From Alistipes sp. (GTDB lineage: Bacteria > Bacteroidota > Bacteroidia > Bacteroidales > Rikenellaceae): DNA of 40,204 nt. Location of the stretch: the NCBI GenBank assembly GCA_017465575.1, contig JAFTVX010000044.1, positions 1 through 40,204 of the forward strand, given 5' to 3'. The notes under the pieces were generated by a model, which did not search any database, was not told where the DNA came from, and was given only the letters and a program-made list of their open reading frames with translations. Each line of letters starts with the position of its first letter. Within the stretch, counting starts at the first letter, position 1. Of this stretch, positions 4,019-30,178 are shown piece by piece. The translations under genes and the position numbers were made by a program.

Positions 4019-4266
4019 CTTTGTCGTCAAAAGTCGTGAGATGTGGGTTATCGCAAAAATGCCGTCGATGGGCTGTACTTGGCGTATTTCCCATTCGCCA
4101 TTTCGACTGAAGCGTCGCAGTAGCGCCGCTATCACAAAAAAAAAGTCGGTGCGCCAATTTCCCCCATAATACCCTCCGCCTCAAATACCCAAATGAAAGC
4201 CTCATTAACCCTAATCATCGACGAAAGGTATGCGCACCGACATATAACATTATAGCGACGACAAAG
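4019..4266. repeat. Palindromic element, copy A (composite)
   Basis: CTTTGTCGTC (4019-4028) is matched by GACGACAAAG (4257-4266). The left part holds the family core hairpin (ATGGGC..TACTTGGCGTATTTCCCAT, 4068-4095) and the conserved ATCAC (4131-4135). The right part is a second palindrome with arms GTCGGTGCGC (4145-4154) and GCGCACCGAC (4232-4241). It is the most diverged copy. Confidence 0.55.
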
Positions 4267-4413
4267 GTATAGCAGAGGCAGCCGTATTGAAATACATAGT
4301 TTACATAAAGAGTAACCAATTTTACTTTTATGCCACCACTAACCACAAAAGAGTTAGGATAACACAATAATTATTAGTAATTTTGGTTAGTCTAATAGAG
4401 AATTGGTTGCGCT

Positions 4414-5286
4414 ATGAACAAGAGATATAAATTCAGCACCATAGATGATGTAAATAGACTTTACAACATCCCGACGCTACATCCACTAATTAGCGTTATC
4501 AAGCTTTCGGATGTCAAGCCTATCGACATTCACCATAGCGAGCTCGGCATCTACACCATCGCCTGCCTCATTAATGACGATGGCAGTGGCTCTGTTCACT
4601 TCTTTGCGCCAACCAATAACATCACGCTGGACACGCGCGAGTTTTATAGAATGAACGGCTGTAGCCTCAACTTCCACCCCTCGCTACTTGATGATACGCT
4701 GCTTGTACATCGTATGCCGGAATATACATTCTTCAAGTATGCGCCCCACGATGTGTTACACCTCTCAGATTTCGAGATGAGGATTGTCGTGGGATGCATC
4801 AACGGCATAGGTAAGGAGCTAAATAATACTACCGACAACTACACCACACGCATCATCGCCTCAGGAATGGCCGTGCTATTTAGTTTCTGTATGCGCTACT
4901 ACGACCGCGAATACTCTGCGCATAGCGACAGTAGCGACATCATCAAGCGACTCAATATGTTGCTCAACAACCACCTCGCCCGCCCTATCCACGAGCGTTG
5001 TGAGCTGCCCAGCGTAGCGTGGTGCGCCGAGCGTATGCACCTGTCGGCCAACTACTTTGGCGACTTGGTCAAGCGCCAGAGCCACCGCTCGGCACAGGAT
5101 ATTATACATCAGCGCATCATCGCCGAGGCACGACTGCTGCTCGACCGTGGAAGATACTCGATAAGCGAGATTTCGTACCACCTCGGCTTTAAGTACCCGC
5201 ACCACCTGACGCGCGTATTCAAGCGCATCTTGGGCATCACTCCCAACGAATACCGAGCAAAAGTGCAGATAAAAAAGCCACTGTGA
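4414..5286 (+). CDS. AraC-family transcriptional regulator
   Basis: A 290-residue DNA-binding regulator. The C-terminal ~95 residues form the double helix-turn-helix of the AraC/XylS family: HLSANYFGDLVKRQSHRSA is the first helix-turn-helix, and ISEISYHLGFKYPHHLTRVFKRILGITPNEYR is the classic second one with the GFxxxxxxxRxFKxxxGxTPxxYR signature. The N-terminal ~180 residues form a cupin-like sensory domain with no obvious ligand motif. It is monocistronic. A -7-like TAATTTTG at 4378-4385 lies upstream without a clear -33 box. Its targets are unknown. Confidence 0.9.
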   Translation: MNKRYKFSTIDDVNRLYNIPTLHPLISVIKLSDVKPIDIHHSELGIYTIACLINDDGSGSVHFFAPTNNITLDTREFYRMNGCSLNFHPSLLDDTLLVHRMPEYTFFKYAPHDVLHLSDFEMRIVVGCINGIGKELNNTTDNYTTRIIASGMAVLFSFCMRYYDREYSAHSDSSDIIKRLNMLLNNHLARPIHERCELPSVAWCAERMHLSANYFGDLVKRQSHRSAQDIIHQRIIAEARLLLDRGRYSISEISYHLGFKYPHHLTRVFKRILGITPNEYRAKVQIKKPL

Positions 5287-5318
5287 TACTGTTTTGAGCG
5301 AGTTAGAGTAGCCAAAAT

Positions 5319-5349
5319 TTTGCTATTTGAAAACTTTACACTATCTTTG
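5319..5349 (+). promoter_or_regulatory. Promoter of tRNA-Gln
   Basis: TTTG at 5319-5322, a 19-bp spacer and TATCTTTG at 5342-5349 fit the Bacteroidetes consensus, about 20 bp before the mature tRNA end. Confidence 0.55.
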
Positions 5350-5369
5350 CCACGCTTACGAGCAACGAT

Positions 5370-5443
5370 TGAGCTATGGTGTAATGGTAACACAGCAGAT
5401 TTTGGTTCTGTTATTCTGAGTTCGAATCTCGGTAGCTCAACCA
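5370..5443 (+). tRNA. tRNA-Gln (anticodon TTG)
   Basis: It forms a full cloverleaf: acceptor TGAGCTA (5370-5376) pairs with TAGCTCA (5433-5439), the anticodon loop carries TTG, and the T-arm loop is TTCGAAT. The CCA end is encoded at 5441-5443. It has its own promoter and terminator, so it is a single-gene unit. Confidence 0.93.
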
Positions 5444-5448
5444 GAAAG

Positions 5449-5479
5449 TCCGATAGGTTATTGCTTATCGGATTTTTTT
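5449..5479 (+). terminator. Rho-independent terminator after tRNA-Gln
   Basis: TCCGATA (5449-5455) pairs with TATCGGA (5466-5472), followed by seven T. The next -7-like box, TATATTTG (5481-5488), lies right behind it and probably drives the nucleotidase gene. Confidence 0.85.
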
Positions 5480-5518
5480 GTATATTTGCATAAATAAAAT
5501 TTCAAATAGCTTCCCTAT

Positions 5519-6442
5519 ATGGCTTTCCCTATTGAGAATAAGTTGGTTGTTGCGGTATCATCTTCGGCATTGTTCGACCTCTCGGAGTCGGATAAGGTAT
5601 ATAATGAGTGTGGCTTGCAGGAGTATCGTCGCTACCAGGAGCAGAATATCGATGTTCCTCTGGGTAAGGGCGTTGCATTCCCCTTTGTCAAGCGCTTGTT
5701 GAGCCTCAACGAGGCATTCCCTGCCGAGCAACCTGTCGAGGTTGTGCTGCTCTCGCGTAACTCGCCAGAGACAGGCTTGCGTGTATTCCGCACCATCAAG
5801 CACTACGGTCTCGATATCTCGCGCGCCTCGTTCTTCTCGGGCGAGTCGCCATATAAGTATCTCCCCGCCTTTAATGCTTCGCTCTTTCTCTCGGCCTCGG
5901 AGCGCGATGTGAAGAACGCTTGCGATGCAGGCTATGCAGCGGGTCGTGTCCTCGACAGCGAGGTTATGGACGATGTGCAGGATAGCGAGCTACGCATCGC
6001 CTTCGACTTCGATGGCGTAATTGCCGACGACGATAGCGAGAAAATATACCAGGAGCACGGCTTGCAGGCCTTCCACCTTCACGAGGCAGCAACCAAAAAG
6101 CCCCTCGACCCAGGCCCTCTTGCCGACTTGCTGATTAAGATTTCGAACCTCCAGCGCTTGGAGATGGAGCGTATGAAGGAGGATGCGGAGTACCGCCGTA
6201 AACTGAAGATTTCTATCGTTACAGCCCGCAATGCCCCCGCCCACGAGCGTGTGGTAAACACCCTAAAGAGTTGGGGCGTAGAGGTTACCGAGGCCTTCTT
6301 CCTCGGTGGCATCTCTAAGGATAGAGTGTTGGAGATTATGCGCCCACATATCTTCTTCGACGACCAGATGTCGCACCTCGACCACCTACGCAATGTCCCC
6401 GCCGTGCATATCCCGATGGGCATCGCCAACGAGAAAAGGTAA
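5519..6442 (+). CDS. Cytosolic 5'-nucleotidase (NT5C1-like)
   Basis: A 307-residue enzyme of the 5-nucleotidase family related to animal cytosolic cN-I, which hydrolyses nucleoside monophosphates to nucleosides. The catalytic HAD motif I is AFDFDGVIADDDSEKIYQEHG (Asp163 and Asp165), motif II is IVTARNAP, and motif IV is FFDDQMSHLD. The N-terminal half carries a degenerate look-alike, VAVSSSALFDLSESDKVYNECG, as is known for this family. There is no signal peptide, so it is cytosolic. It is followed after 10 bp by a small membrane protein, probably in the same transcript. Confidence 0.88.
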   Translation: MAFPIENKLVVAVSSSALFDLSESDKVYNECGLQEYRRYQEQNIDVPLGKGVAFPFVKRLLSLNEAFPAEQPVEVVLLSRNSPETGLRVFRTIKHYGLDISRASFFSGESPYKYLPAFNASLFLSASERDVKNACDAGYAAGRVLDSEVMDDVQDSELRIAFDFDGVIADDDSEKIYQEHGLQAFHLHEAATKKPLDPGPLADLLIKISNLQRLEMERMKEDAEYRRKLKISIVTARNAPAHERVVNTLKSWGVEVTEAFFLGGISKDRVLEIMRPHIFFDDQMSHLDHLRNVPAVHIPMGIANEKR

Positions 6443-6452
6443 AAGACTGACT

Positions 6453-6725
6453 GTGAAGGAGTTTTTCAACAAGGTATTAGATAAGATAAAGGCGTTTCTA
6501 CAGCGTCTATCATTCCGCACGGGGGTTGTTGTGCTCGCTTCGTGCGTGGTCTTTTATATACTCTCGTTTGCACAGATGGCACTACCTATCTCGCCCGCAA
6601 TGAAGGGTGTGCTATGGTTTGTGCTCTTCGGTATGGCAAAGACCACGCAGTATGCAGGTCTTGCAATTGTCGGCATCGAGGGATGGAAACGCATCAAAGG
6701 GTACTTTAAAAAGAATGAGGAATGA
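6453..6725 (+). CDS. Small two-helix membrane protein, unknown function
   Basis: A 90-residue protein starting at a GTG (6453), 10 bp after the nucleotidase stop. A longer frame extends back into the nucleotidase gene but overlaps it heavily, so I reject that start. After an amphipathic basic N-terminus (KEFFNKVLDKIKAFLQRL) come two membrane segments, roughly residues 23-43 (GVVVLASCVVFYILSFAQMA) and 50-75 (KGVLWFVLFGMA..AGLAIVGI), and a basic tail ending KKNEE. I do not recognise the family. Co-transcription with the nucleotidase is likely; a functional link is not shown. Confidence 0.65.
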   Translation: MKEFFNKVLDKIKAFLQRLSFRTGVVVLASCVVFYILSFAQMALPISPAMKGVLWFVLFGMAKTTQYAGLAIVGIEGWKRIKGYFKKNEE

Positions 6726-6779
6726 GAAATTAGCAATTAGAAATGAGCAATCTTTTTTAGATAAATTCCCATAAAAAAG

Positions 6780-6794
6780 CATTTTAACTCATTG
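6780..6794. repeat. Short copy of the phased TTTTAAC repeat
   Basis: CATTTTAACTCATTG preceded by AAAAAAG, with an upstream AGAAATGAGCAA segment like that before the 22.3-kb array. It looks like a truncated member of the phased-repeat family. Confidence 0.45.
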
Positions 6795-6830
6795 TCTGCG
6801 ACAATGCAACCTTCCAAAACCCCACGGTCA

Positions 6831-6958
6831 AAATTTGTTGTCAAAAGCCGTGAGATGTGGTGCCAAATGAAAGAGCCTCGGATGGGACATACTCGAAGTA
6901 TTTCCCATTCGGGGCTCTGAGTTTGGTGCCGCAGATTGCGGCTTTTCACAACAAATTT
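6831..6958. repeat. Palindromic element, copy B
   Basis: A 128-bp near-palindrome. AAATTTGTTGT (6831-6841) matches ACAACAAATTT (6948-6958), followed inward by AAAAGCCG/CGGCTTTT and GGTGCC/GGTGCC arms. The core ATGGGACATACTCGAAGTAT with TTTCCCAT sits at 6882-6907. It lies between two convergent genes. Confidence 0.75.
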
Positions 6959-7083
6959 ATTTAGCGTCAGTGAGGGGCATATACAACACTCGCCAAAAAA
7001 AATGCGGATGGGCTGTACTTTGGCGTACTGCTCATTCGCATTTTTTTGGTAGGGGCAGTAGATGCCCCTCAATCACGCTAAAT
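6959..7083. repeat. Palindromic element, copy C, ending on the rluB stop codon
   Basis: It directly abuts copy B. Outer arms ATTTAGCG..GAGGGGCAT (6959-6980) and ATGCCCCTC..CGCTAAAT (7062-7083) enclose CCAAAAAAAATGCG (6993-7006) paired with CGCATTTTTTTGG (7037-7049). The core is ATGGGC..GTACTTTGGCGTAC..GCTCAT. The last base is shared with the stop codon of the minus-strand gene. The A/T-rich inner hairpin could act as a terminator in both directions. Confidence 0.75.
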
Positions 7084-8351
7084 TACTCGTATTGACCAGT
7101 CTTAAGGCGCATAACCTCCTCCTTGGTGAGGAAACGCCAAGCACCACGCTTGAGATTCTTCTTTGTAAGACCTGCATAGTATACGCGGTCGAGCTTCTGC
7201 ACGGTGTAGCCGAGGTGCTCGAACATACGGCGCACGATACGGTTACGACCCGAGTGAATCTCCACGCCTACGCTACGCTTATCCTCTGATGCATAAGCAA
7301 TCTCGTCGGCAAAGATATCACCATCCTCGAGTGTGATACCCTCGGTGAGGGTGTCCATATCGGCACGGGTGAGGGGCTTATCGAGTGTTACCTGATAGAT
7401 CTTCTTCTTGTGGCACGAGGGGTGTGTAAGCTGGCGTGTGATGTCGCCATCGTTGGTGATAAGGAGTAGACCTACCGAGTTCTTATCGAGACGACCTACG
7501 GGGTATACACGCTCGGTGCAAGCATTCTTCACAAGGTCCATCACGGTCTTGTCGGCATAGGGGTCGTCGAGCGATGTTACATAGCCCTTGGGCTTGTTGA
7601 GCACAAGGTATACATTCTTCTCGCCCTGCAAGCGCTCATCGTTGAAGCGCACCTCGTCGGTAGGCAAAATCTTTGTACCAAGCTCGGTAACTACCTGACC
7701 ATTAACGGTTACTACGCCTGCGAGGATAAAGTCGTCAGCCTCACGGCGTGAGCATACGCCCGACTGCGAGATAAAGCGGTTGAGGCGTACCTCGCCAGTT
7801 ACCTTGTTGGGGTTGTACTTGGGATAGTTGCGAGGTTTCTCGTCACGCTTGGGTGCGAATGAACGCTTTGCGCCACCCTTACCCTCGCTCTTGTAGGCAG
7901 GTTTGCCTTCGCTCTTATAGGCAGGCTTACCCTCGCCACGGAAAGCGGGCTTGCCAGATGTAGCAGGGCGTGCAGACTTTGCACGGTAGCCCTCGCTCTT
8001 GAGCTTAAAACCACCACGCTCCGAGCGCTCCGAGCGGTCGAAGCGGTCGTTGCGCTCCGAGCGGTCGTAACGCTCTGTGCGCTCATAGCGGTTGCCACGC
8101 TCCGAACGCTCCTCGTTGCGGGGTGCGTACTCCGAACGGAGACGGTTCTCGTCAGTGAAATGGGGGTTGAATGAACGGCGCTGGGTAGGCGCTGATGTTG
8201 TGCGAGGACGATACTCTCGCTGTCCCTCGTTGTCGGCCTCGCGGCGAGGGCGGGGACTACGCTCAACGCGCTCCGAAGTGTTGATACGCTGACGCTTATC
8301 GCGAGCAAAGCGTGACACATTTGCGCTTGAGTCTGTGTTGTAATTTTTCAT
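7083..8351 (-). CDS. rluB: RluB/RsuA-family rRNA pseudouridine synthase with basic N-terminal tail
   Basis: A 422-residue protein. Residues ~187-232 are an S4 RNA-binding domain (VRLNRFISQSGVCSRREADDFI), followed by the RsuA/RluB catalytic domain with VYPVGRLDKNSVGLLLITNDGD, in which Asp289 is the catalytic residue, and RNRIVRRMFEHLGY near the end. The family converts a uridine of 23S rRNA (U2605 for RluB) to pseudouridine; which site this enzyme modifies is inferred. The first ~185 residues are disordered and Arg/Lys-rich, with RSER/YDR-type and KPAYKSEG repeats, a tail seen in Bacteroidetes homologues and likely to bind RNA. Its leader is highly structured (8352-8549). Confidence 0.88.
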   Translation of the reverse strand: MKNYNTDSSANVSRFARDKRQRINTSERVERSPRPRREADNEGQREYRPRTTSAPTQRRSFNPHFTDENRLRSEYAPRNEERSERGNRYERTERYDRSERNDRFDRSERSERGGFKLKSEGYRAKSARPATSGKPAFRGEGKPAYKSEGKPAYKSEGKGGAKRSFAPKRDEKPRNYPKYNPNKVTGEVRLNRFISQSGVCSRREADDFILAGVVTVNGQVVTELGTKILPTDEVRFNDERLQGEKNVYLVLNKPKGYVTSLDDPYADKTVMDLVKNACTERVYPVGRLDKNSVGLLLITNDGDITRQLTHPSCHKKKIYQVTLDKPLTRADMDTLTEGITLEDGDIFADEIAYASEDKRSVGVEIHSGRNRIVRRMFEHLGYTVQKLDRVYYAGLTKKNLKRGAWRFLTKEEVMRLKTGQYE

Positions 8352-8549
8352 CTTAAGGGATGTTCTATTATTTAGTAAAAATGTTTGCGTTCGGGGTGTT
8401 CTCTATTTCGGTCGCTTTTGGTATTATTTTGGTATCTTCCTCGTTTTTCCTCAGTTACAATACCCGCGCATTGCGCCTTCGGAAGAGACGAGAAATATTC
8501 TCAAAATAATCTCCAAAATCTACTCGACCTAAATAATAGAACCTCCCTT
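8352..8549 (-). promoter_or_regulatory. Long-hairpin leader in front of rluB
   Basis: Outer arms at 8355-8375 and 8529-8549 are complementary over 21 bp with one mismatch (they share TTCTATTATTTAG). Inside, GGTCG/CGACC, TTTTGG..ATTATTTTG with its complement, CTCGT..TTCC/GGAAAAACGAG and a GCGC-AAT-GCGC apical hairpin nest in order, so nearly the whole 195 nt could fold as one rod. The inner end is 4 nt from the ATG. It is either a regulatory leader or a foldback (MITE-like) insertion; no known riboswitch is recognised. Confidence 0.55.
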
Positions 8550-8657
8550 ACTTAAACTATGTTTAAATTTCGGCACAAAGGTAAATATTTTTTACGGAAG
8601 GTCAACACCTAATCGCAATATCTATACCATTTTTTTCGCTGTAAAGAGTAAATTTAT

Positions 8658-8665
8658 TATTTTTG
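8658..8665 (+). promoter_or_regulatory. -7 box of the MATE gene
   Basis: TATTTTTG fits TAnnTTTG and lies 20 bp before the ATG at 8686; the -33 region (TTTCG, 8634-8638) is weak. Confidence 0.35.
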
Positions 8666-8685
8666 TGCGGTAAAGAGGTTAATTT

Positions 8686-10020
8686 ATGAACAAAGAGATA
8701 CTTAAGTTATCGATACCCAACATTATATCGAATATCACGGTACCCCTGATGGGTATCGCCTCGACCGCCATTGCTGGTCGCATCGAGGGTAGTTCGGCAG
8801 CGGTCACTATCGGTGCATTGTCGATAGGCGTTGCTATCTTCAACTTTATATATTGGAACTGCTCGTTTATCCGTATGGGCACAAGCGGTCTTACAGCACA
8901 GGCCTTTGGTGCTGGCGACAAAAAGGGCATCTCGCTGATGTTGTGGCGAGCGCTTATCGTGGCCTTTGGCGTGGGCATCGTCGCCTTTCTGTTGCAATAC
9001 CCTATCGGCGAGTTCTCGATAGATTTTATGGGCACGGGCGATGCGACGAGCGATGCTATGATTTCGCGATATTTCTACACCCGAATATGGGCTGTACCTG
9101 CGGGCATCTTGCTCTTTGCCTTTAACGGTTGGCTTACGGGCATGCAGAATGCCGTTGTGCCGATGATTGTGGCTATCACGGTGAATATCATACATATAGC
9201 GTGCAGTTTTCTATTCTCCATCGTAGGCACTATGGGCTTGGAGGGCATCGCTCTTGGCTCTGTGGTGGCACAGTGGACTGGTGTGGCTATTATGGTCGTT
9301 ATAGTCGCGCTGAAGTATCGCAAGTCGTTGGTCAGCGTATCGTTAAAGGAGGTTATGGACCTCTCGGCAATGAAGGAGTTTTTCTCTATCAATGGCGATA
9401 TTATCATCCGCACCTTCTGCCTTGTTGCCGTATACACCTTCTTTACGAAGGCTTCGGCAGATAGTGGCGATGCCAATATCTTGGCTGTCAACACCATACT
9501 CTTGCAGTTATTCACCCTATTCTCATATATGATAGATGGTTTTGCTTATGCTGCCGAGGCGCTTACAGGTCGCTTTGTTGGCGCTCACGATGGCAAGTCG
9601 TTACGCCGTTGCATAAAGCTCTGTCTTGTTTGGGGTACGGTCATTGCGCTTGTCTATGTAGGAGCATATATAGGTTGGTGGCGAGATATCTTCACACTAC
9701 TTGTACCTGCCGATGCCGAGAATATTGGTGCACTTTTGGCTGTTGCCGAGGAGTATATCGGTTGGATTATTGTGATACCTATCGCCTGCGCTATGCCCTT
9801 TATTATGGACGGCATTATGGTGGGTGCCACACGCAGTCGCATTATGCGTAACTCGATGATTTACTCGGCGATAACCTACTTTGCGATACTCTACGGCTTG
9901 GGCTGGCTTATCGGCAATAATGCGCTGTGGATGGCATTTACGCTCTTTATGTTTGTGCGTGGCGTGTTGCAGTTCTTTATGTCGGATAGGTTGCGCGATA
10001 TCTATCGAGATGCCGAATAG
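8686..10020 (+). CDS. MATE-family multidrug/sodium antiporter
   Basis: A 444-residue integral membrane protein with about 12 hydrophobic segments. The N-terminus (EILKLSIPNIISNITVPLMGIASTAIAGRI) and GTSGLTAQAFGAGDKKGI are the first-helix and loop signatures of MATE (DinF/NorM-like) transporters, and a second AEALTGRFVGAHDGKSL repeats the pattern in the second half, as expected of the duplicated fold. Such proteins export cationic drugs or metabolites in exchange for Na+ or H+; the substrate is unknown. It lies 36 bp before uvrB on the same strand, so the two may be co-transcribed. Confidence 0.92.
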   Translation: MNKEILKLSIPNIISNITVPLMGIASTAIAGRIEGSSAAVTIGALSIGVAIFNFIYWNCSFIRMGTSGLTAQAFGAGDKKGISLMLWRALIVAFGVGIVAFLLQYPIGEFSIDFMGTGDATSDAMISRYFYTRIWAVPAGILLFAFNGWLTGMQNAVVPMIVAITVNIIHIACSFLFSIVGTMGLEGIALGSVVAQWTGVAIMVVIVALKYRKSLVSVSLKEVMDLSAMKEFFSINGDIIIRTFCLVAVYTFFTKASADSGDANILAVNTILLQLFTLFSYMIDGFAYAAEALTGRFVGAHDGKSLRRCIKLCLVWGTVIALVYVGAYIGWWRDIFTLLVPADAENIGALLAVAEEYIGWIIVIPIACAMPFIMDGIMVGATRSRIMRNSMIYSAITYFAILYGLGWLIGNNALWMAFTLFMFVRGVLQFFMSDRLRDIYRDAE

Positions 10021-10056
10021 GTTGCTTCGAGAGAGCATTTTTCGTAATTTTGCAGA

Positions 10057-18082: not shown

Positions 18083-18409
18083 CGTGTTTAAGGTTTTAAA
18101 GGTTTATCATTTGTTTCACGATGCAAAGTAACCACCACTTTTTGACAGGTTGCGTCAAAGGAAAAAATTTTATAGGTAAAATGAGATATTTTTCTGTGGT
18201 AACGCTCCCTCGACCTAAAGAACAGAGAGAGGACAGAGAGGGAACAGGGAGAGAGCAGAGAGGGAACAGGGAGAGAGCAGAGAGGGAACAGGGAGAGAGC
18301 AGAGAGTGAACAGGGAGAGTAATCAACCCACCCTGACAACTCCCTGAAATCTCCCTGAAGTCTCTCTGAAATCTCCCTAATAAACCACCTTCCCACCTGC
18401 ACTCAGCCG
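18083..18409. repeat. Repeat-filled intergenic region
   Basis: No gene is supported. Positions 18241-18319 hold 3.6 tandem copies of a purine-only-type 22-bp unit (GGAACAGGGAGAG..CAGAGAG). Positions 18341-18380 hold 11-bp units of TCCCTGAAATC. Open frames here simply translate the repeats (ESRE/LSPC-type) and were rejected. Confidence 0.75.
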
Positions 18410-18536
18410 AATTTCTTGTCAGAAGGGGCATAATTTGGCGCCGATAAAGAGAAAGCCCGGATGGGACATACTAAGCGTATTTCCCATTCGGGCTTTGGAT
18501 TGAGGCGTCGAAGGATGCCCCTTATCACAAGAAATT
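18410..18536. repeat. Palindromic element, copy D (best conserved)
   Basis: A 127-bp element. Left arm 18410-18431 (AATTTCTTGTCAGAAGGGGC) and right arm 18515-18536 (GCCCCTTATCACAAGAAATT) differ only at the two family mismatches. The inner stem AAAGCCCG/CGGGCTTT carries the core ATGGGACATACTAAGCGTAT-TTCCCAT (18461-18487). It ends 8 bp before the stop codon of the minus-strand mutase. Confidence 0.8.
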
Positions 18537-18543: not shown

Positions 18544-20289
18544 TTACAGGTTGAGTTCAAGCTTAAGGTCTGCAATCTTCTTGTCGAGGGCCGCCTCAAC
18601 CTCGGCAAACTTATCTACCGAAGGAAGCTCAGCCTTAACGCCGAAGTAGAACTTAATCTTAGGCTCGGTGCCTGAGGGACGAACAGACACCTTGGTGCCG
18701 TCCTCGGTGAGCCACTGGAGAACATTACTCTTATCGTCGATGCCCTCGATAGGTCGCTTCTCGCCTGTCTTAACATCGAGCTCCTCCAAGGTCTTGTAGT
18801 CGAGAACCTTAACCACGGGTGAGCCAAGCAACGACTTGGGAGGATTCTGGCGGTAGTCTACCATCATCTGCTGAATCTCGGCAGCACCATCCTTACCCTT
18901 GCGAACAACATTTACCAAGCCCTCGCGGAAGAAGCCATACTTAACATAGAGCTGCTGCAACCACTCGTAGAGTGTGATGCCCATAGTCTCGCGTGCCCAA
19001 GCGGCAGCCTCGGCAACAAGTGTGATAGCAGCAACGCCATCCTTGTCGCGCACAAAGTCGCCGGGGAGATAGCCGAACGACTCCTCGCCACCACCGATAT
19101 ACTTTGTCTTGCCCTCCTGCTCACGGATAATCTTCGCGATATACTTGAAACCAGTGAGGCAGTTGTAGCACTTCACGCCATAGTGCTCAGCGATAGTATC
19201 GGGCATCATAGATGTTACGATGGTCTTAACCACGAACTCCTTGCCGGTAATCTTGCCAAGCTCTGCCCAGCGTGTAAGCTGGTAGCTCATCAAGAGCACC
19301 AATGTCTGGTTGCCGTTAAGCAATACATAGTCGCCAGCACCTGTGCGCAACGCAACACCCAAGCGGTCGGCATCGGGGTCGGTAGCCATAGCGAAATCTG
19401 CCCCCTCCTTCTCGGCACGCTCGATGGCCATAGCCATAGTCTTGCGCTCCTCGGGATTGGGCGATGCCACGGTGGGGAAGTTGCCGTCGAGCACCATCTG
19501 CTCATCGACACATATAATATTATTGAAGCCGTAGTTGCGCAACGACTGAGGCACGAGCTTTACGCCAGCACCGTGCAACGGGGTGTAGACAATCTTCATA
19601 TCGTTGTGCTTAGCAACAGCCTCGGGCGATAGGGAGAGCGCCTTGATTGCTGCCAAGTACTTCTGGTCGAACTCCTCGCCGAGGATGTGGATGTTCTCGG
19701 CATTCTTGCCTGTGAGCACCTGCTCAAGGTCGGTAACCTTCAATACCTCCTCGATGATGTTTACATCGTGGGGTGAGGTAACCTGTGAGCCATCGTTCCA
19801 ATAAGCCTTGTAGCCGTTGTACTCCTTGGGGTTGTGCGATGCGGTAACCATAACACCCGAGTGGCAGCCAAGCTCGCGGATAGCGAACGAGAGCTCGGGA
19901 GTGGGGCGCAAAGCGTCGAAGAGGTAGACGATAAAGCCGTTAGATGCAAAGATATCGGCAACACGCTCAGCGAACATACGCGAGTTGTTACGGCTATCGT
20001 GCGAGATAGCAACCTTAATCTGCTCGCCCTCGAAGTTCTTCTTAAGATAGTTAGCCAAGCCCTGAGTTGCTGAGCCCACGGTGTAGATGTTCATACGGTT
20101 AGTACCAGCACCCATAATACCGCGCAAACCGCCAGTACCAAACTCGAGGTCCTTGTAGAAGCTCTCAACAAGTTCGTTGGGGTTGTTCTCCATCATAAGA
20201 CGAATCTCGGCCTTTGTAGCCTCGTCGTAATTGCCATCGAGCCAAGCCTGAGCTCTTGACAAAACCTGCTTGTCCAATTCGTTTGCCAT
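18544..20289 (-). CDS. Phosphohexomutase (phosphoglucomutase/phosphomannomutase family)
   Basis: A 581-residue alpha-D-phosphohexomutase that moves a phosphate between C1 and C6 of hexose phosphates for glycan and nucleotide-sugar synthesis. The phosphoserine loop is VMVTASHNPKEYNGYK, the metal loop is ATDPDADRLGVAL, the sugar loop is GGGEESFGY, and the phosphate loop near the C-terminus is SVRPSGTEPKIKFYF. The first residues (QAWLDGNYDEATKAEI) are the long N-terminal type of Bacteroidetes and Bacillus PgcA-like enzymes. It is full length and cytosolic. Glucose or mannose specificity cannot be told from sequence. The minus-strand 3' end is followed by palindromic copy D. Confidence 0.94.
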   Translation of the reverse strand: MANELDKQVLSRAQAWLDGNYDEATKAEIRLMMENNPNELVESFYKDLEFGTGGLRGIMGAGTNRMNIYTVGSATQGLANYLKKNFEGEQIKVAISHDSRNNSRMFAERVADIFASNGFIVYLFDALRPTPELSFAIRELGCHSGVMVTASHNPKEYNGYKAYWNDGSQVTSPHDVNIIEEVLKVTDLEQVLTGKNAENIHILGEEFDQKYLAAIKALSLSPEAVAKHNDMKIVYTPLHGAGVKLVPQSLRNYGFNNIICVDEQMVLDGNFPTVASPNPEERKTMAMAIERAEKEGADFAMATDPDADRLGVALRTGAGDYVLLNGNQTLVLLMSYQLTRWAELGKITGKEFVVKTIVTSMMPDTIAEHYGVKCYNCLTGFKYIAKIIREQEGKTKYIGGGEESFGYLPGDFVRDKDGVAAITLVAEAAAWARETMGITLYEWLQQLYVKYGFFREGLVNVVRKGKDGAAEIQQMMVDYRQNPPKSLLGSPVVKVLDYKTLEELDVKTGEKRPIEGIDDKSNVLQWLTEDGTKVSVRPSGTEPKIKFYFGVKAELPSVDKFAEVEAALDKKIADLKLELNL

Positions 20290-22356: not shown

Positions 22357-22367
22357 GAGTTATTAGA

Positions 22368-22457
22368 TTCATCCTGAGTAAAACGAAGGATCTCACAGTT
22401 ATCACGACCCTCGACCGTCTATAAAACCTTGAGATCTTTCGCTTCACTCAAGAATGA
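22368..22457. repeat. MITE/REP-like inverted repeat (ATTCATCCTGAG type)
   Basis: Arms TTCATCCTGAGTAAAACGAA plus GGATCTC (22368-22394) and GAGATC plus TTTCGCTTCACTCAAGAATGA (22431-22457) are imperfect inverted repeats. The sequence resembles a widespread bacterial GTCATTCTGAG/GAATCTC palindromic repeat. The rest of the gap to 22570 is CT-rich low-complexity DNA. Confidence 0.55.
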
Positions 22458-22570
22458 CACACACTCTCGCGGTCTCTCTCGTCTCTGAGGTCGCTGAGGT
22501 CTTTTTCGTCTCTGTTGTCTCTCTGCTCCCTCCCTGAAAACACCCTCGCACCCCCTCAACCTCAATACAC

Positions 22571-22597
22571 AAAAAAGGCGTACCTTAACGATACGCC
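22571..22597 (-). terminator. Terminator of the ECF operon
   Basis: GGCGTA (22577-22582) pairs with TACGCC (22592-22597), followed on the minus strand by six T. It lies just past the last gene of the operon. Confidence 0.75.
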
Positions 22598-22619
22598 AAA
22601 ACTAATGCTTTACTTCTGC

Positions 22620-23441: not shown

Positions 23442-23452
23442 AATCAATCTGT

Positions 23453-23860: not shown

Positions 23861-23902
23861 ATTCCTCGTTTTACATTTATAATTACAGCGCTGTTTTTCT
23901 TT

Positions 23903-24379: not shown

Positions 24380-24861
24380 TCTCTCTGTCTCGTTTTGAAT
24401 TGTTCCAAAATATTGCGTCTTGCTCGGCTAAGGTTTTGGTATACGGCATCGACACTCATCATTGCCACTGTGGCTATCTCCTCGACCTCCATCGCCTCGA
24501 TATGTTTTAGACGGAAGACCATCTGCTGTTTCGAGGGTAGCGAGTCCACGACATCGAGTACTGCACGGATATCTATCCCGTTTGTATCATCTTCATCGTT
24601 AGGCGACATATAGGGTTTTAGCTCGACCATCGGGTGGCGATCCTCGTAGCGCAAGGTGTTGAGCGAAAGATGTTTAACCACAATCGTTGCAAGCGAATCC
24701 ACCGAGCCACTATCAGTCAGCCTATCACGCATCGTAAAAAGCTTGAGCAGAGCCTCCTGCACCACATCCTCGGCACTATCTTTCGCAAGATAGCGACTTG
24801 CCGTGGTAAGCATCTTATCGCGACATCTCACGACAAATATTTCGAACTCTGCGTTTGTCAT
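24376..24861 (-). CDS. ECF RNA polymerase sigma factor
   Basis: A 161-residue sigma-70 family protein from the ATG at 24861. A longer frame reaches 25047, but its first 62 codons are low-complexity repeat DNA, so I rejected that start. Region 2 is EIFVVRCRDKMLTTASRYLAKDSAEDVVQEALLKLF, and region 4 is LPSKQQMVFRLKHIEAMEVEEIATVAMMSVDAVYQNLSRARRNILEQF. The length fits a minimal ECF sigma. The operon order sigma, anti-sigma-like, DUF5024-like, GIN protein points to an envelope-stress regulon that includes its own operon. Confidence 0.9.
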   Translation of the reverse strand: MTNAEFEIFVVRCRDKMLTTASRYLAKDSAEDVVQEALLKLFTMRDRLTDSGSVDSLATIVVKHLSLNTLRYEDRHPMVELKPYMSPNDEDDTNGIDIRAVLDVVDSLPSKQQMVFRLKHIEAMEVEEIATVAMMSVDAVYQNLSRARRNILEQFKTRQRE

Positions 24862-25176
24862 CTGTTGTTTTCGGTTTCTGACTATATAACACCGCGTGGT
24901 GGCGTTTCTGACATCGAAGATACGATTTTTTACGCAATTGGTAGGGGTTGATGGAAAAAAGAGAGTTGGTAGAGGTTGAAGAGGCGCAGTCAATAGTGAA
25001 TTTAGGGAGATTAGGGAATTTAGTGAAGTTAGGGATAGCGCTATCATCTTTTATCCCTAAGCTCCTTACACTCTTTAAACCCATTAAACTCCCTGAAAAC
25101 CTCCCTGAAACACACAAAAAAATAGGTCGCACCCCACGGATGCGACCTATTTATATATAAAGGAGTAACTCTAAGA
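24862..25176. other. Repeat-rich gap between ECF sigma and SecDF
   Basis: It holds TTAGGGATA/TATCCCTAA (25029-25060), GGGA-rich degenerate repeats and two CTCCCTGAAA units (25090-25111). No gene is supported; apparent frames are low-complexity. The SecDF terminator lies at its right end. Confidence 0.6.
25115..25153 (-). terminator. Rho-independent terminator of secDF
   Basis: On the minus strand, AAATAGGTCGCA (25142-25153 reversed) pairs with TGCGACCTATTT, then a T-run of seven. It follows the secDF stop at 25177. Confidence 0.9.
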
Positions 25177-28077
25177 TTACTCTGCATCAGCCTTCAAAGC
25201 CTTCTTGCGCTGGCAATCGTAGGCGATAGGAGTAGCGATAAATACTGAAGAGTAAGTACCGATAACCACACCAAGGATCAACGCGAAGACGAAACCACGG
25301 ATGGTCTCACCACCGAAGATGAAGATCGAAAGAAGAGTTACCAAGGTAGTACCCGAAGTATTGATAGTACGCGACAAGGTAGCGCAGATAGCGTTGTTGA
25401 TGTTGTTGCGGATATCGCGCTTGGGGTAGAGAGTCATATACTCACGGATACGGTCGAAGATAACCACGGTATCGTTGATAGAGTAACCGATGATGGTCAA
25501 GATTGCAGCGATAAATGCCTGGTTAACCTCGAGGTTGAAGGGCATAATAGCATACAACATTGAGAAGAGACCGATAACGAGCAATGCGTTGTGTGCCAAG
25601 GCTACAGTAGCACCCAAAGCCCACTGCCAACGGCGGAAACGAACAGCGATGTAAGCGCCGATAGCAATCAACGCGATAAGCACTGCGACAACAGAGTTGC
25701 GGGTCATCTCGCTTGAGATAGCGCTACCCACCTGCTCCGAAGATGCGATACCATACTGTGCGATACCCTCACCAGTAGTGCGGAAGTGCTCGAACTCGAA
25801 GCCCTCCAAGTTGAAGTGCTCCTTAACGCTCTGGTAGATGATGCGGTCAACAACATCGTTAGCCTCCTCACCCTCGAGACCCTCGGGCTGGTACTGGGTA
25901 ACGATACGAATCTGGTTGTCGTCACCAAACTGCTTAACCTCGACAGAGGTGTTAGATGCGTCACCAACCTCGGCGAAGTTAGCCTCGAGTGATGCACGAA
26001 CCTCGGTGATGTTAACCTTCTCGGGGAACTTAACAACATATGAACGACCACCGGTGAAGTCTACGCCCTGGTTAAGACCGAGGGTGAGCAACGACACGAT
26101 AGAGAGCACGATAAGCGAGCCAGAGATGATGTAAGAGAACTTACGCTTGCCGATAAAGTCGAACTTGATGCCCTGCAAGAAGTTCTCGGTAATCTTTGTT
26201 GAGAATGCGATATTGCCACGGCGAGCTGCCCAAGCCTCCAACAATACGCGAGTGATGAAGATAGAGCAGAACAACGAGGTGATGATACCTGCAACCAAGG
26301 TAGTAGCGAAGCCCTTAACAGGACCTGTACCGAAGAAGAAGAGAACGATACCAGTGATAATGGTGGTAAGGTTACCGTCGATAATCGCTGAATAAGCGTT
26401 CGAGAAACCATCCTTGATAGCCAACGAGAGACCCTTGCCAGCACGCAACTCCTCCTTGATACGCTCGAAGATGATGACATTAGCATCCACAGCCATACCC
26501 ATAGTAAGCACGATACCTGCGATACCGGGGAGTGTCAAGACAGCGCCGAACGATACAAGCACGCCCATAAGGAGCAATACATTGAACAAGAGTGCGCAGT
26601 TTGCCATCATACCTGCTGCGCTGTAGAAGAATGCCATATAGACAAGCACGAGCAAGAATGCCAAAGCGAACGAGATAAGACCTGCGTTGATTGACTGTGC
26701 ACCAAGCGAAGGACCAACAACCTCGGTGTGGATAATAGTTGCGGGGGCGGGAGCCTTACCTGAGTTAAGCACCGAAGCCAAATCCTCTGCCTCCTGGGGA
26801 CCGAAGTTACCGCTGATAGATGACTGACCACCATCGATACGGTCGTTAACCTGAGGTGCAGAATATACATAGTCGTCGAGAACGATAGCAATCTGCTTGC
26901 CGATGTTTGCACCAGTGATGTCGCCCCACTTAACAGCGGTGTTGGCATCCATAGTCATCGAAACCTCGAAGCCACCAGTCTGACCACCCTGTGCGCGAGC
27001 GTTAGTGATGCCCGAGCCATCGAGAACGGGAGCAGCAACACCATTCTTACCCTTCAAAGCGTAGAGAAGGAATGTACCGCGTGAGTTCTCGTCGGTGCTC
27101 TTGTTAGACCAAGCGAGCAACACATCGTTGGGAAGTGCACGGTCCAAAGCGGGGATAGCGAGGTACTCGTTGAGCTTCGCCATATCCTCCTTTGCTGCAG
27201 CACCTACCTGGGGAGCACGAACCGAAGTCTCGTAAACCTCGCCAGCAGCCGAGCCTACGAAGTTGTAGTGAAGAAGGTCGGTAACGGGGGTGAGGCTAAC
27301 CTCCTCCTCCGAAGCACCGTTAGCCAAGAGGTGATCGCGAACGATACCGTTAGCCTCGCCATAGAGGATGTCCATAATCTCACCAGTCTCTGCCTGGTCG
27401 CATACGGTCCAGAACTCGAGGTTAGCGGTAGAAGCCAAAAGCTTGCTTACGCGCTCGGGCTCCTTAACACCAGGCAACTCAACCGAGATACGGTTGGTAC
27501 CTGTTACGCGCTGGATGTTGGGCTGGGTAACACCAAGAAGGTCGATACGGCTGTTCAACACATCGAACGAGCTTGCTACCGAACCCTCGATAAGCTCCTT
27601 GAGGTCCGAAGCCAAAGCTGCGGTGTCCTCCGATGCCATACCGAAGATTGAGCAAACGCCCTCGCCATAGGCTGCGATGAAGGCATCAACAACAGCCGAA
27701 GCGTTCTCCTCAACCGAGGCTGCCTTCAACGCTGCATCCATACGCTCGTAGAGAGCGGGGTCAGCCATTACGATGCCCTTGTTCTCGGCGTTGGTGCGGA
27801 TAACATCCGTAGCCTTAATCTCGAGCATAACATTCATACCGCCCTTGAGGTCAAGACCCAAGTTCAACTCACGGTTCTTACAATCAGCGTAGGTGTACTT
27901 CACCAAGCCAAGATTGTAGACAACCTCATCCCACTTAGCATCGAGATATGCTGCGGGATTCTCCTGCTCTGCTGCCTTACGCTCCACGCTGCGTGTAACG
28001 AAGGTGAATGAGAGCTGGAACACACAAGCCAGCGCCAAGAGTGCCGCCAGCCACTTAATAATACCTTTACTCTGCAT
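25177..28077 (-). CDS. secDF: SecDF fused protein-export subunit
   Basis: A 966-residue fusion of SecD and SecF, which use the proton gradient to pull proteins out of the Sec channel. The SecD half has an N-terminal membrane helix, the P1 periplasmic region with YTYADCKNRELNLGLDLKGGMNVMLEI (the D1 signature), and six membrane helices with GIVLTMGMAVDANVIIFERIKEEL (D5). The SecF half begins ~residue 640 with SYIISGSLIVLSIVSLLTLGLNQGVDFTGG (F1) and ends with GYSINDTVVIFDRIREYMTLYP (F4). The fused form is normal in Bacteroidetes. The upstream gap has a TATCTTTG -7 box (28163-28170, minus) that overlaps a terminator. Confidence 0.96.
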   Translation of the reverse strand: MQSKGIIKWLAALLALACVFQLSFTFVTRSVERKAAEQENPAAYLDAKWDEVVYNLGLVKYTYADCKNRELNLGLDLKGGMNVMLEIKATDVIRTNAENKGIVMADPALYERMDAALKAASVEENASAVVDAFIAAYGEGVCSIFGMASEDTAALASDLKELIEGSVASSFDVLNSRIDLLGVTQPNIQRVTGTNRISVELPGVKEPERVSKLLASTANLEFWTVCDQAETGEIMDILYGEANGIVRDHLLANGASEEEVSLTPVTDLLHYNFVGSAAGEVYETSVRAPQVGAAAKEDMAKLNEYLAIPALDRALPNDVLLAWSNKSTDENSRGTFLLYALKGKNGVAAPVLDGSGITNARAQGGQTGGFEVSMTMDANTAVKWGDITGANIGKQIAIVLDDYVYSAPQVNDRIDGGQSSISGNFGPQEAEDLASVLNSGKAPAPATIIHTEVVGPSLGAQSINAGLISFALAFLLVLVYMAFFYSAAGMMANCALLFNVLLLMGVLVSFGAVLTLPGIAGIVLTMGMAVDANVIIFERIKEELRAGKGLSLAIKDGFSNAYSAIIDGNLTTIITGIVLFFFGTGPVKGFATTLVAGIITSLFCSIFITRVLLEAWAARRGNIAFSTKITENFLQGIKFDFIGKRKFSYIISGSLIVLSIVSLLTLGLNQGVDFTGGRSYVVKFPEKVNITEVRASLEANFAEVGDASNTSVEVKQFGDDNQIRIVTQYQPEGLEGEEANDVVDRIIYQSVKEHFNLEGFEFEHFRTTGEGIAQYGIASSEQVGSAISSEMTRNSVVAVLIALIAIGAYIAVRFRRWQWALGATVALAHNALLVIGLFSMLYAIMPFNLEVNQAFIAAILTIIGYSINDTVVIFDRIREYMTLYPKRDIRNNINNAICATLSRTINTSGTTLVTLLSIFIFGGETIRGFVFALILGVVIGTYSSVFIATPIAYDCQRKKALKADAE

Positions 28078-28171
28078 TGTTAAAAAGTTTTGTTATTATT
28101 TGTTTGTTGTTTTCCTTTCGGTCGGCACGCTACACCTAAAGTGTAAACGCGCGTTAATCGCGCAAAGATAT

Positions 28172-28206
28172 AAAAAAAATCGCAATCCACAACTCGGGAC
28201 TGCGAT
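28172..28206 (-). terminator. Terminator of the fucosidase gene
   Basis: On the minus strand ATCGCAGTCC pairs with GGATTGCGAT (28179-28206), then eight T. The T-run runs into the -7 box of secDF. Confidence 0.8.
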
Positions 28207-28227
28207 AAAAATAGTTTTGTTCAGAAA

Positions 28228-28272
28228 AAATGGGTTACGATAAGTTAAAATGAGTTACGATGGGTTAAAATA
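28228..28272. repeat. 10-bp-phased repeat, inverted copy
   Basis: Read on the plus strand, TGGGTTACGA, TAAGTTAAAA, TGAGTTACGA, TGGGTTAAAA form four 10-bp steps. This is the same TTTTAAC/TCGTAAC array on the other strand, 40 bp after the fucosidase stop. Confidence 0.65.
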
Positions 28273-28312
28273 TTTCTTCAAAGGATAGCATATTAACTCA
28301 TTGCATCTATCA

Positions 28313-29617
28313 CTACTTTGTGGTAAGCTCGATGATGTAATCCACCTTATCCTCAACCTTGCCACACTCGAGCAAGATGCCACCAGCGACCTTCTGGAAC
28401 TTAACCTTCTGCTCCGTACCAAAGACCTTGGCACTCATCACCTTACACTCCAAAGGCAAGTACAAAGCATCGTGCTCCAACTCGAAGATATGGATGAACA
28501 GGCGGTCGCCCTTGCGTGTGGTGCAACCCCACTCCTGCTGGCGGATATCGCCTGCCTCAGTGCCATAGATTGTCTCGCCATTCGCCTTAAGCCACTCGCC
28601 CAAATCCTTCATTCGCTCGACAGCCACAGCAGGCAACTCGCCATTGGGCTGAGGGCCTACATTGAGCAAGAGATTGCCACCCTTACCCGCAGCGCTAACC
28701 AAGTAGCGAACGAGGGTCTCGGTAGACTTATAGTTCTGGTCGACAACCTTATAGCCCCACATACCGTTCATCGTCTGGCAGGTCTCCAAGGGCAATCGGC
28801 TGATAGCCTGACCCGACAATCCGTGGGTATTCTCGCCCGGGAGGTCACGCTCAAAAATCTGGATATCCTCGCCCTCGAAGGGTACTTGGTGGTGGTTGTT
28901 GGCAACAAGGCACGAGGGCTGCAACTTATGCACCAAGGCATACTGCTCGTCGAGCTCCCAGTTGAAGGGCGTAGCATCCTCGTCGTGGTCCCACCAGCCA
29001 TCAAACCATATAGCACGCACAGGGCCATAGTTGGTAAGAAGCTCGGTAATCTGGCGGTTCATAAAGTCGTAGTACGAGCGCCAGTTAATCTTCGTCTCAT
29101 CACGACCTGTAACCTCCTTTGCGGTACGACCACGGGGGTAGTCATCACGGCTCCAGTCGGCGTGCGAGTAGTAGAGGTGGAGGGCGATACCCTGCTTCTG
29201 GCACTCCTCGGCTAACTCCTTGAGCACATCGCGCTTAAAGGGTGTAGCATCAACGATATTATACTCCGACTCTGCGGTATCCCACATCGAGAAACTGTCG
29301 TGGTGGCGTGTGGTGAAGCATACATACTTTGCACCCGACGCCTTGATAGCCGACACCCACTCCCGAGCATCGAAGCGGTGGGGATAGAAGGCATCAGCAG
29401 CCTTGGCATACTCGTCGCGGTCGAGACCTGCATTCTGCAAGTACCACTCGCCCTGCGCAAACATCGAGTAGATGCCCCAGTGGATAAAGATGCCGAAACG
29501 GTCGTCGGCAAATGCCTCACGGCTCTTGATATTCTCCTCGGTAGGCACATAGCCCTGCGCCGAAACGGAAGCGAAAGACATCGCAACGAGGAGCAGTGAA
29601 AGGATAAGTTTTTTCAT
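28313..29617 (-). CDS. Alpha-L-fucosidase, GH29
   Basis: A 434-residue secreted glycoside hydrolase that removes terminal alpha-L-fucose from host glycans such as mucin O-glycans. Signal peptide MKKLILSLLLVAMSFASVSA (residues 1-20). The catalytic (beta/alpha)8 domain shows DRFGIFIHWGIYSMFAQGEWY, KYVCFTTRHHDSFSMWDT (His-His fucose-binding pair) and the nucleophile strand RAIWFDGWWD (Asp206). The short length (no C-terminal carbohydrate-binding module) is common in gut Bacteroidetes. No PUL-type SusC/D genes lie nearby, so it is not in a polysaccharide utilisation locus here. It stands alone, with repeat-rich DNA upstream. Confidence 0.95.
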   Translation of the reverse strand: MKKLILSLLLVAMSFASVSAQGYVPTEENIKSREAFADDRFGIFIHWGIYSMFAQGEWYLQNAGLDRDEYAKAADAFYPHRFDAREWVSAIKASGAKYVCFTTRHHDSFSMWDTAESEYNIVDATPFKRDVLKELAEECQKQGIALHLYYSHADWSRDDYPRGRTAKEVTGRDETKINWRSYYDFMNRQITELLTNYGPVRAIWFDGWWDHDEDATPFNWELDEQYALVHKLQPSCLVANNHHQVPFEGEDIQIFERDLPGENTHGLSGQAISRLPLETCQTMNGMWGYKVVDQNYKSTETLVRYLVSAAGKGGNLLLNVGPQPNGELPAVAVERMKDLGEWLKANGETIYGTEAGDIRQQEWGCTTRKGDRLFIHIFELEHDALYLPLECKVMSAKVFGTEQKVKFQKVAGGILLECGKVEDKVDYIIELTTK

Positions 29618-29635
29618 AGTTTTAGGTATTAGTTT

Positions 29636-29800
29636 CCAGGGAGGTTTCAGGGAGGTTTCAGGGAGGTTTTCAGAGAGTTTTCAGGGAGAGCTGATTGCGT
29701 TATCCGCATTCTCTCTGCCATTTTCTCTATTCTCTCTGCTTTCTCTCTAACACCTCTCTGTTTTCTCTCTGCTTTCTCTCTGTTATTTTTCTGGCAAGCG
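29636..29800. repeat. 11-bp TTTCAGGGAGG array and pyrimidine tract
   Basis: Three near-exact 11-bp TTTCAGGGAGG units run from about 29636 to 29670, then degenerate copies. A long CTCTCTGCTTT-type pyrimidine tract follows (29706-29790). The same unit occurs at 18341-18380 and 25090-25111. Confidence 0.65.
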
Positions 29801-29835
29801 AGGCTTTGCAGTTGCCCGCTTATCACAACAAAGAG

Positions 29836-29908
29836 AGCGGTAGACGGGACTCGAACCCGCGACCCTCGGCTTGGGAAGCCAATGCTCTACCAACTGAGCT
29901 ACTACCGC
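29836..29908 (-). tRNA. tRNA-Gly (anticodon CCC)
   Basis: The minus-strand cloverleaf has acceptor GCGGTAG paired with CTACCGC, a D-arm with AGCTCAGTTGGTAGAGC, anticodon loop TTCCCAA (anticodon CCC) and T-loop TTCGAGT. The discriminator is T; no CCA is encoded, unlike the tRNA-Gln in this window. Confidence 0.92.
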
Positions 29909-29981
29909 AAAGTGAATGAGTTGTTAGTTGTTAGTTATTAGTTATTATTTATTAGTTTTTTTTGAGATTTCTCTTAAAAAA

Positions 29982-30030
29982 CATTTTAACCCATCGTAAC
30001 TCATTTTAACTCATTTTAACCCATTAAATT
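29982..30030. repeat. 10-bp-phased TTTTAAC/TCGTAAC array
   Basis: CATTTTAACC, CATCGTAACT, CATTTTAACT, CATTTTAACC in exact 10-bp steps, led by CTCTTAAAAAA, 21 bp before palindromic copy E. This is the clearest array. Confidence 0.7.
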
Positions 30031-30050
30031 ACGCACCTACTTCGATGCAT

Positions 30051-30178
30051 ATTTTATCGTCAGAAAGGTACATATTTGGTGGTGGGTCGCAGGCGTTGAA
30101 AGCGGAGCATACTAAAGCGTATGTGAGCATTTCAACGACAAGCCCAACGCCGAAGATGTGCCTTTATCACGATAAAAT
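30051..30178. repeat. Palindromic element, copy E, ending on the lepA stop codon
   Basis: A 128-bp element. Left arm ATTTTATCGTCAGAAAGG (30051-30068, extended to 30073) pairs with the right arm CCTTTATCACGATAAAAT (30161-30178, extended to 30156) except at the family mismatches and a weak G/T pair. The core GAGCATACTAAAGCGTATGT is at 30105-30124. Its last base is the first base of the lepA stop codon (reverse). Confidence 0.75.

Follow-up and report, generated by a model that had tools for sequence, protein, structure and literature searches.

An undescribed family of hairpin palindromes, probably derived from a mobile element, at the 3' ends of Alistipes genes

The 40.2-kb stretch of DNA considered here (the window) is an entire contig, C18, of an Alistipes genome (G000; 1.95 Mb in 47 contigs, 94.28% complete) and carries several copies of a palindrome with a unit length of 123-128 nt. 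In our reading, these palindromes belong to an undescribed, order-wide family of palindromic miniature inverted-repeat transposable elements (MITEs), which was amplified in this Alistipes lineage and settled at gene ends, where it replaces intrinsic terminators; we assign this reading a probability of about 0.6. An earlier note on this DNA had proposed a selected and so far undescribed structure, and this proposal is borne out: the copies are not few, covariation is not lacking, and no named element was recovered. The coupling to stop codons, the exclusion of terminators, the asymmetry between the two strands and the relatives across the order Bacteroidales are additions to that note.

Copy number and structure of the family

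Copies of the element are numerous in the own genome. One core pattern gave 39 exact matches, against 0 for the reversed control, and a covariance model built from 38 own-genome copies (R1) found at least 150 matches, far more than the about ten copies that the earlier note had set as a lower mark; scoring covered the best 150 of 624 candidates, every one of which matched. On the complete contigs C27 and C9 (353.5 kb), which form an unbiased set, while some own loci in other counts were chosen by core match or top score, 32 elements were counted. This extrapolates to approximately 177 per genome, and copies in this Alistipes lineage number roughly 150-180. Most of them stand alone, as 34 of 54 arrays consist of a single unit, 17 of two and 3 of three units. 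Among Rfam families only tRNA reached the gathering score in the window, nothing else reached it over seven loci, and the literature matches listed contain no element with these features.

The paired covariation suspected from the window is clearly present. In the alignment of 38 copies, changes on both sides were found for 32 of 44 pairs, and standard pairs make up 95.4% of the pair cells. The covariation score amounts to 0.595 compared to 0.198 in shuffles, none of 500 shuffles reached the observed value, and displacing the partner column by no more than three positions lowers the score to 0.122 or less. With 30 more diverse copies, 27 of 32 pairs changed on both sides. (In the comparison of own-genome cores, those with identical 60 nt were kept once, which left 31 rows.) In addition to the standard pairs, certain non-canonical pairs are conserved among the diverse copies: G.A at columns 12/118 is kept in 26/30 and C.C at columns 10/120 in 19/30 of them, A.G at columns 56/75 occurs in 19/30 with G-C in the other 11, and A.G at columns 24/107 occurs in 26/30, beside G.A (15) or A-T (10).

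Strand and position relative to genes

The hairpin is not equivalent on its two strands. In the model structure, 319 G.U cells stand against 14 A.C cells; this count comprises the first 66 rows, all of them right-strand, of an alignment with 150/151 matches on both strands, so that copy E of the window and some weaker copies lie outside it. Therefore, pairing is maintained on the GTCA..TCAC strand, the antisense one with respect to the abutting gene, and it is this favoured strand that retains the C.C and G.A mismatches. Calculated stabilities agree with the skew. The + strand is the more stable one in 71 of 73 own copies (73 of 77 were used, identical copies once), in 54/56 copies from eight further genomes of the genus (counting hits of 111 nt or longer), and in 41/43 copies from other Bacteroidales. 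The difference survives shuffling, with a mean z of -12.0 for the + strand versus -8.3 for the - strand and the lower value on the + strand in 48/52 cases. For the stabilities and stop distances in other genomes, as well as for the R2 relatives described below, only the stronger of two overlapping strand hits was kept. A bias towards one replication strand was looked for by means of the GC skew of C27 and C9; the skew is weak, elements occur on both strands, and nothing was concluded from it.

The right end of the element is coupled to a stop codon. Using open frames of at least 60 codons, the right end was found at the stop of an opposite-strand frame with one base shared (offset 0) in 37 of 54 arrays, and at offset +1 in 4 more; the junction reads TAA-TTT... 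According to our simple gene finder, the right-hand gene lies on the opposite strand in 52/54 arrays. The left end serves as an internal control: the left gene is on the + strand in 24 arrays, on the - strand in 25 and uncalled in 5, the nearest plus-strand stop (frames of at least 90 codons) is at least 68 nt away, and a gene is contacted on this side by a single array (L004). On C27 and C9, 23 gene ends bear an element, and the offset is identical in 20 of these; the remaining nine elements comprise four outer units of tandem arrays, three fragments and two full-length copies away from called stops. At a few own genes (L045, L062 and L067, with an offset of about -10, and two at -11 on C27 and C9), the reading frame seems to enter the element and to stop inside it.

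A similar coupling is found in other genomes of the genus. Among 56 of their arrays (loci L105-L144; eight arrays in lepA loci were left out), 44 have a stop at a distance between -12 and +10, including 11 at exactly 0, with the reservation that 9 of the 44 are at -12 to -1, where some may be chance stops inside the element. The usual distance between element and stop in genome G003 is 1 to 10. In G248, which belongs to another family, 6/7 loci are within -13 to +2 of a stop. The exact junction could result from insertion targeting or from selection, since the data are compatible with both.

Terminators at element-bearing gene ends

Gene ends that bear the element largely lack intrinsic terminators. 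An intrinsic terminator, i.e. a GC-rich hairpin followed by a T run, was sought in the first 120 nt; genes as well as terminators were called by simple scripts of our own, and the terminator script overlooks hairpins whose loops are longer, such as those that visual inspection showed downstream of rluB in G064 and G021. On C27 and C9, a terminator-like site was found in 0/23 element-bearing ends versus 32/87 others, the latter being convergent ends or tandem ends followed by a gap of 100 nt or more (Fisher p = 1.7e-4). A partly overlapping set, which shares some arrays with these contigs, gave 1/47 element-bearing ends versus 12/25 facing genes (p = 3.5e-6); one facing gene (L027) was counted twice, so that 12/25 corresponds to 11/24 distinct genes, and the p value uses 12/25.

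A comparison of orthologous ends was made at the lepA, pgm and rluB loci with nine alleles each, the own ones included, and an allele was regarded as occupied when an R1 hit of at least 65 bits lies at the stop. By this measure, 12 of the 27 alleles are occupied: five for lepA (G000, G062, G064, G035, G021), two for pgm (G000, G017) and five for rluB (G000, G025, G017, G022, G035); lepA of G017 and G025 gave weak R1 hits of 29 bits. None of the 12 occupied alleles scored as terminator-bearing versus 6 of the 15 others, namely five of the seven unoccupied pgm alleles and one rluB allele. The element thus stands where a terminator would stand. Occupied alleles at the same orthologous site differ in subtype between species, which suggests continuing turnover or gene conversion between copies.

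Two further observations were made at these loci. The rluB 3' end of G004 (L186) carries repeated palindromes of approximately 115 nt with a GCATACT..GTATG core shortly after the stop; they end in TTATAATCGC rather than TTATCAC and gave no R1 hit. In the pgm 3' region of G062 (L177, 3412-3536), a strong R1 copy (121.6 bits), reversed in strand relative to the usual arrangement, lies about 165 nt past the pgm stop.

Relatives in other Bacteroidales

In a first survey, R1 gave hits in 25 of the 36 further genomes from the genus and in none of 24 genomes from other families, and across the order it matched 5/295 genomes, the own one included. Presence within the genus is patchy: in the first survey, which used stricter filters and scored 58 candidates per genome, five genomes of at least 94% completeness (G001, G007, G014, G019, G023) are without an R1 hit. 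A second covariance model (R2) was built from 30 diverse copies, including some from G248, G068 and G155, while the doubtful L324 (G300) was omitted from its alignment A8. R2 matches 69 of 295 Bacteroidales genomes in 56 of 184 genera (E <= 1e-3); these E-values are rough, four of the 69 genomes supplied training copies, and 37 have a best E of 1e-8 or lower. An exact-core scan of the viral_contigs set, a comparison of copies B and C with phage records and a comparison of one G260 element with plasmid records each gave no match.

The anatomy of a mobile element is seen in G130. Here, a search that allowed two mismatches found the 17-nt end of the R2-positive elements 167 times, compared to 5 for the control, from which we judge that there are about 80 copies of a MITE family with 17-bp ends AGTGTCAGCAAGAAAAC, a length of 143-224 bp and ANNT duplications. 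We inspected 25 stretches (L341-L345 and L358-L377), five found by R2 and twenty by the end pattern, which yielded 23 listed pairs or 22 distinct elements, because L344 and L361 represent the same one. Identical 4-bp ANNT flanks occur in 20 of these 22, including all five R2-positive elements; the hairpin was recognised by R2 in these five, the other 17 being known by their shared ends. It forms the right-hand part of the G130 elements and ends at their right end. All five elements of G216 carry the same kind of 4-bp duplication, which was seen in G260 too. The Alistipes units fit the MITE type in that they are short (123-128 nt) and are themselves inverted repeats, with coding capacity judged by length. 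Within the 25 G130 stretches, which were inspected instead of the whole genome, no longer element with these ends and identical flanks was found.

The earlier note had also pointed to a link with REP-associated tyrosine transposases (RAYTs, IS200/IS605-type). Mobility of this kind was tested and is not supported, as the own genome, at 94.28% completeness, holds no match to Y1_Tnp (PF01797) while 5/14 control genomes do. Mobility by reverse transcription was likewise tested without support, given that RVT_1 (PF00078) is missing from the own genome; this domain is present in 15/41 genomes of the genus. Ends of the TA-target type (IS630/Correia-like) were dropped, because the left flank is not constant.

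The copies in the window

Five copies had been described in the window, and the description was right for four of them. Copies B, C, D and E are near-perfect hairpins of 124-126 nt, which fold far better than dinucleotide shuffles both as single-strand DNA (z of -11.9, -10.3, -9.6 and -7.7, respectively) and as RNA (-14.8, -11.8, -12.4 and -8.9). Copy A, in contrast, barely differs from shuffles (z -1.4 as DNA, -1.3 as RNA) and reaches 43.8 R1 bits compared to 83.8-127.7 for the other four. It had been taken as one palindrome at 4019-4266; instead, the copy occupies 4019..4142 (+; R2 46.1 bits), is not a full palindrome and represents a degraded hybrid of two subtypes. The longer interval is not one palindrome because the left half of copy A resembles one subtype and the right half another (compared by eye).

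Copies B and C form a tandem pair: copy B is a 124-nt hairpin at 6833..6956 (+; R1 125.4 bits) with arms that reach 6831-6958, and copy C a 125-nt hairpin at 6959..7083 (+; R1 112.9 bits; offset 0). The last base of copy C is the first base, on the + strand, of the stop codon TTA of a minus-strand gene called rluB here (7083..8351, -), which encodes an S4 domain and an RNA pseudouridylate synthase. Copy D, a 125-nt hairpin at 18411..18535 (+; R1 127.7 bits; offset +9), faces the 3' end of pgm (phosphoglucomutase/phosphomannomutase; 18544..20289, -), and the gap between copy D and the stop codon is filled by CAACAAATTA, which resembles the end of an earlier copy. Copy E is a 126-nt hairpin of a divergent subtype at 30052..30177 (+; R1 83.8, R2 102.4 bits) and directly follows the TAA stop of lepA (30178..31968, -; offset +1). 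LepA of the window shares 98% identity with its counterpart in a metagenome-assembled genome of Alistipes sp. from water deer colon, which points to an uncultured Alistipes as the most likely host.

The shared core ATGGG...CCCAT ascribed to all copies holds for A, B and D and nearly so for C; copy E has GCGGAGCATACT..GTATGTGAGCAT and, therefore, the core common to all five is TACT..GTA. The conserved stem mismatches described for C, D and E, with GTCAG opposite ATCAC, were found as claimed, and copy B has GTCAA opposite TTCAC, which keeps the C.C mismatch and turns G.A into A-T.

On the left side, many own copies are preceded by a tail, CCTTCCARYCAGCAC, with 101 matches at up to two mismatches compared to 15 for the control. 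In the window, the tail motif lies directly left of copy A (CCTCCCAGCCAGCAC, 4003..4017, +; one mismatch to the tail pattern) and left of copy D (CCTTCCCACCTGCAC, 18388..18402, +; two mismatches). By eye, the tail motif bears some resemblance to the left MITE end, on which we base no claim. Further left, many arrays show palindromes of short tandem repeats (e.g. window 18300-18390 and 3900-4000) with a purine-rich left and a pyrimidine-rich right arm, which fall into several unrelated sequence classes of the same layout (judged by eye, with computed folds). In 45/52 cases, the minus strand is the more stable one for this left flank with its decamer-repeat palindromes, but the gap is small against shuffles (mean z -3.8 versus -3.3, minus lower in 33/52), and we took it as an effect of composition. 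In some arrays, left parts of older copies precede a complete copy, and at the own loci L145, L148, L159 and L163 ladders of partial left hairpin halves, or of the whole left composite, stand before the complete copy. A nested inverted repeat of another kind, approximately 220 bp long (GTCATCCCGAGGGAG...CTCCCTCGGGATGAC), is located at window positions 36646-36866 after a gene at 35401-36606; its core has one further occurrence among the own-genome stretches examined.

Interpretation and alternative explanations

We propose that the palindromes are non-autonomous mobile elements of the MITE type from a family that is widespread in Bacteroidales. In the Alistipes lineage, mobile copies with an anatomy like that in G130 would have given rise to the present ones by amplification, followed by settling at the 3' ends of transcription units, with the right end joined to the stop codon and the element in the place of the intrinsic terminator. 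The hairpin may now do the 3'-end job itself, i.e. halt or insulate transcription, or it may make the loss of the terminator tolerable. Selection would act on the antisense single strand, be it an RNA transcribed from the opposite direction or single-stranded DNA recognised by a protein, and a protein may read the mismatches of the hairpin. Taken together, a 3'-end element that acts in the terminator's place via the antisense or template strand would be the function most consistent with the data.

However, it must be mentioned that several points weigh against this reading. A simple RNA terminator fits poorly, since the conserved strand is opposite to the mRNA of the abutting gene, and terminator activity is deduced from exclusion alone. 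Moreover, at 4/47 element-bearing ends a terminator-like site follows within 120 nt after the array, no lepA allele scores as terminator-bearing whether occupied or not (0/9), and only 1/4 unoccupied rluB alleles does. Two full-length copies, C27:195625 and C9:94563, are not at a called stop. In the other Bacteroidales sampled, the stop rule is weak, with 12/43 copies within -14 to +10, and it therefore does not characterise the entire family. Duplicated targets are established in G130 and also seen in G216 and G260, not in the Alistipes copies, and the link between the latter and the MITEs is drawn by one covariance model, trained on copies from the own genus, G248, G068 and G155. Finally, no mobilising enzyme was found, as both Y1_Tnp and RVT_1 are absent from the own genome; other transposase or recombinase families were not searched.

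Among the alternatives, the most serious one, although we still consider it unlikely, is a non-mobile 3'-end device of the host, an RNA or template-strand DNA structure that spreads by gene conversion only and could act as factor-dependent terminator, as insulator against antisense transcription or as 3'-end stabiliser. Such a device would account for the stop-codon rule together with the terminator exclusion, for different subtypes at the same site across species and for a strand-specific structure. It is difficult to reconcile with the R2 relatives in G130, G216 and G260, which reside in MITE-like elements flanked by 4-bp duplications and show no strong preference for stops, as well as with the patchy presence in the genus, where 25/36 other genomes match R1.

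It is much less probable that the palindromes are unselected and owe their symmetry to template-switch correction (quasipalindrome repair), which would imitate covariation. Long inverted repeats are prone to copying from arm to arm, and the halves appear, by eye, to be shuffled between copies. Nevertheless, arm correction is disfavoured because it would erase both the mismatches that persist across the 30 diverse copies and the skew of G.U over A.C. Slightly less credible again is a retroelement resembling short interspersed elements (SINEs), in which + strand RNA would be copied in by target-primed reverse transcription from the stop codon. The fixed right end, the variable left end with partial left copies, and the polarity of the folded strand, which meets the gene with its 3' end, are in line with this idea; against it, RVT_1 is lacking not only in the own genome but also in 7 of 11 other genomes with at least 40 R1 hits, and the partial copies are left parts instead of 5'-truncated ones. 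Least probable of all are repetitive extragenic palindromes (REPs) or bacterial interspersed mosaic elements (BIMEs) mobilised by a RAYT, for despite the high copy number, the extragenic position, the mismatched palindromes and the strand asymmetry, the Y1_Tnp result, a unit of 123-128 nt rather than 20-40 nt and the inverted ends with duplicated targets of the G130 relatives speak against them.

The MITE-derived reading can be taken one step further, to a claim that we regard as doubtful: about a fifth of the transcription-unit ends (23/110 on C27 and C9) might have been replaced by a transposon-derived hairpin that forms on the antisense or template strand, carries protein-binding mismatches and sets the gene ends in coupling with the stop codon. 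If true, this would represent a new kind of 3'-end device and a genome-wide takeover of terminators by mobile DNA. Mobile repeats near bacterial genes are common; we know of no family, however, that is fixed to the base at stop codons, excludes terminators and is conserved in antisense. If our reading is right, these genomes provide a natural experiment on how gut Bacteroidales define the ends of genes when intrinsic terminators are missing, and the element would be a probe for the putative protein that reads mismatched hairpins.

Comparison with known systems

In length and form, the element resembles the enterobacterial repetitive intergenic consensus (ERIC), an imperfect, extragenic and dispersed palindrome of about 127 bp, and other enterobacterial palindromes of that length; the host phylum differs, and to our knowledge neither a stop-codon rule nor a preference for the antisense strand has been described for ERIC. 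REP/BIME sequences with RAYT are dispersed extragenic hairpins as well, but the Alistipes unit is much longer, abuts the stop directly and has no Y1 transposase in its own genome. The attC sites of integrons share with it a structured site right after the stop which is functional on the strand opposite to the gene, whereas the Alistipes genes include lepA and other housekeeping genes and form no cassette array.

Within the Bacteroidetes, four palindromic candidate RNAs of 80-132 bp, HMP2_4205 and HMP_4078 among them, have been named that occur mostly or entirely in this group (PMC8040213). They are palindromic and of similar length, a likeness drawn from their description and not from their sequence, and the excerpted description gives no stop-codon rule or mobility (PMC8040213). 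With regard to the loss of terminators, IS1272 is instructive, for which a transposition that replaces inverted repeats was reported (PMC5678879): insertion in the place of a resident inverted repeat would explain why the terminator is gone, a parallel that serves as a lead only.

MITEs finally share with the Alistipes elements that they are short, non-coding, intergenic and multicopy with inverted-repeat ends, and the relatives in G130 add 17-bp ends and 4-bp duplications. In Bacteroidales, BrickBuilt, MITE239 and MITEPgRS of Porphyromonas gingivalis were described, whose ends, as listed in the excerpted source, differ from those in G130 (PMC4596501). BrickBuilt sits at a distance of 49-591 nt from coding sequences according to the same excerpt (PMC4596501), whereas the Alistipes copies mostly abut stop codons, at places where terminators are missing.

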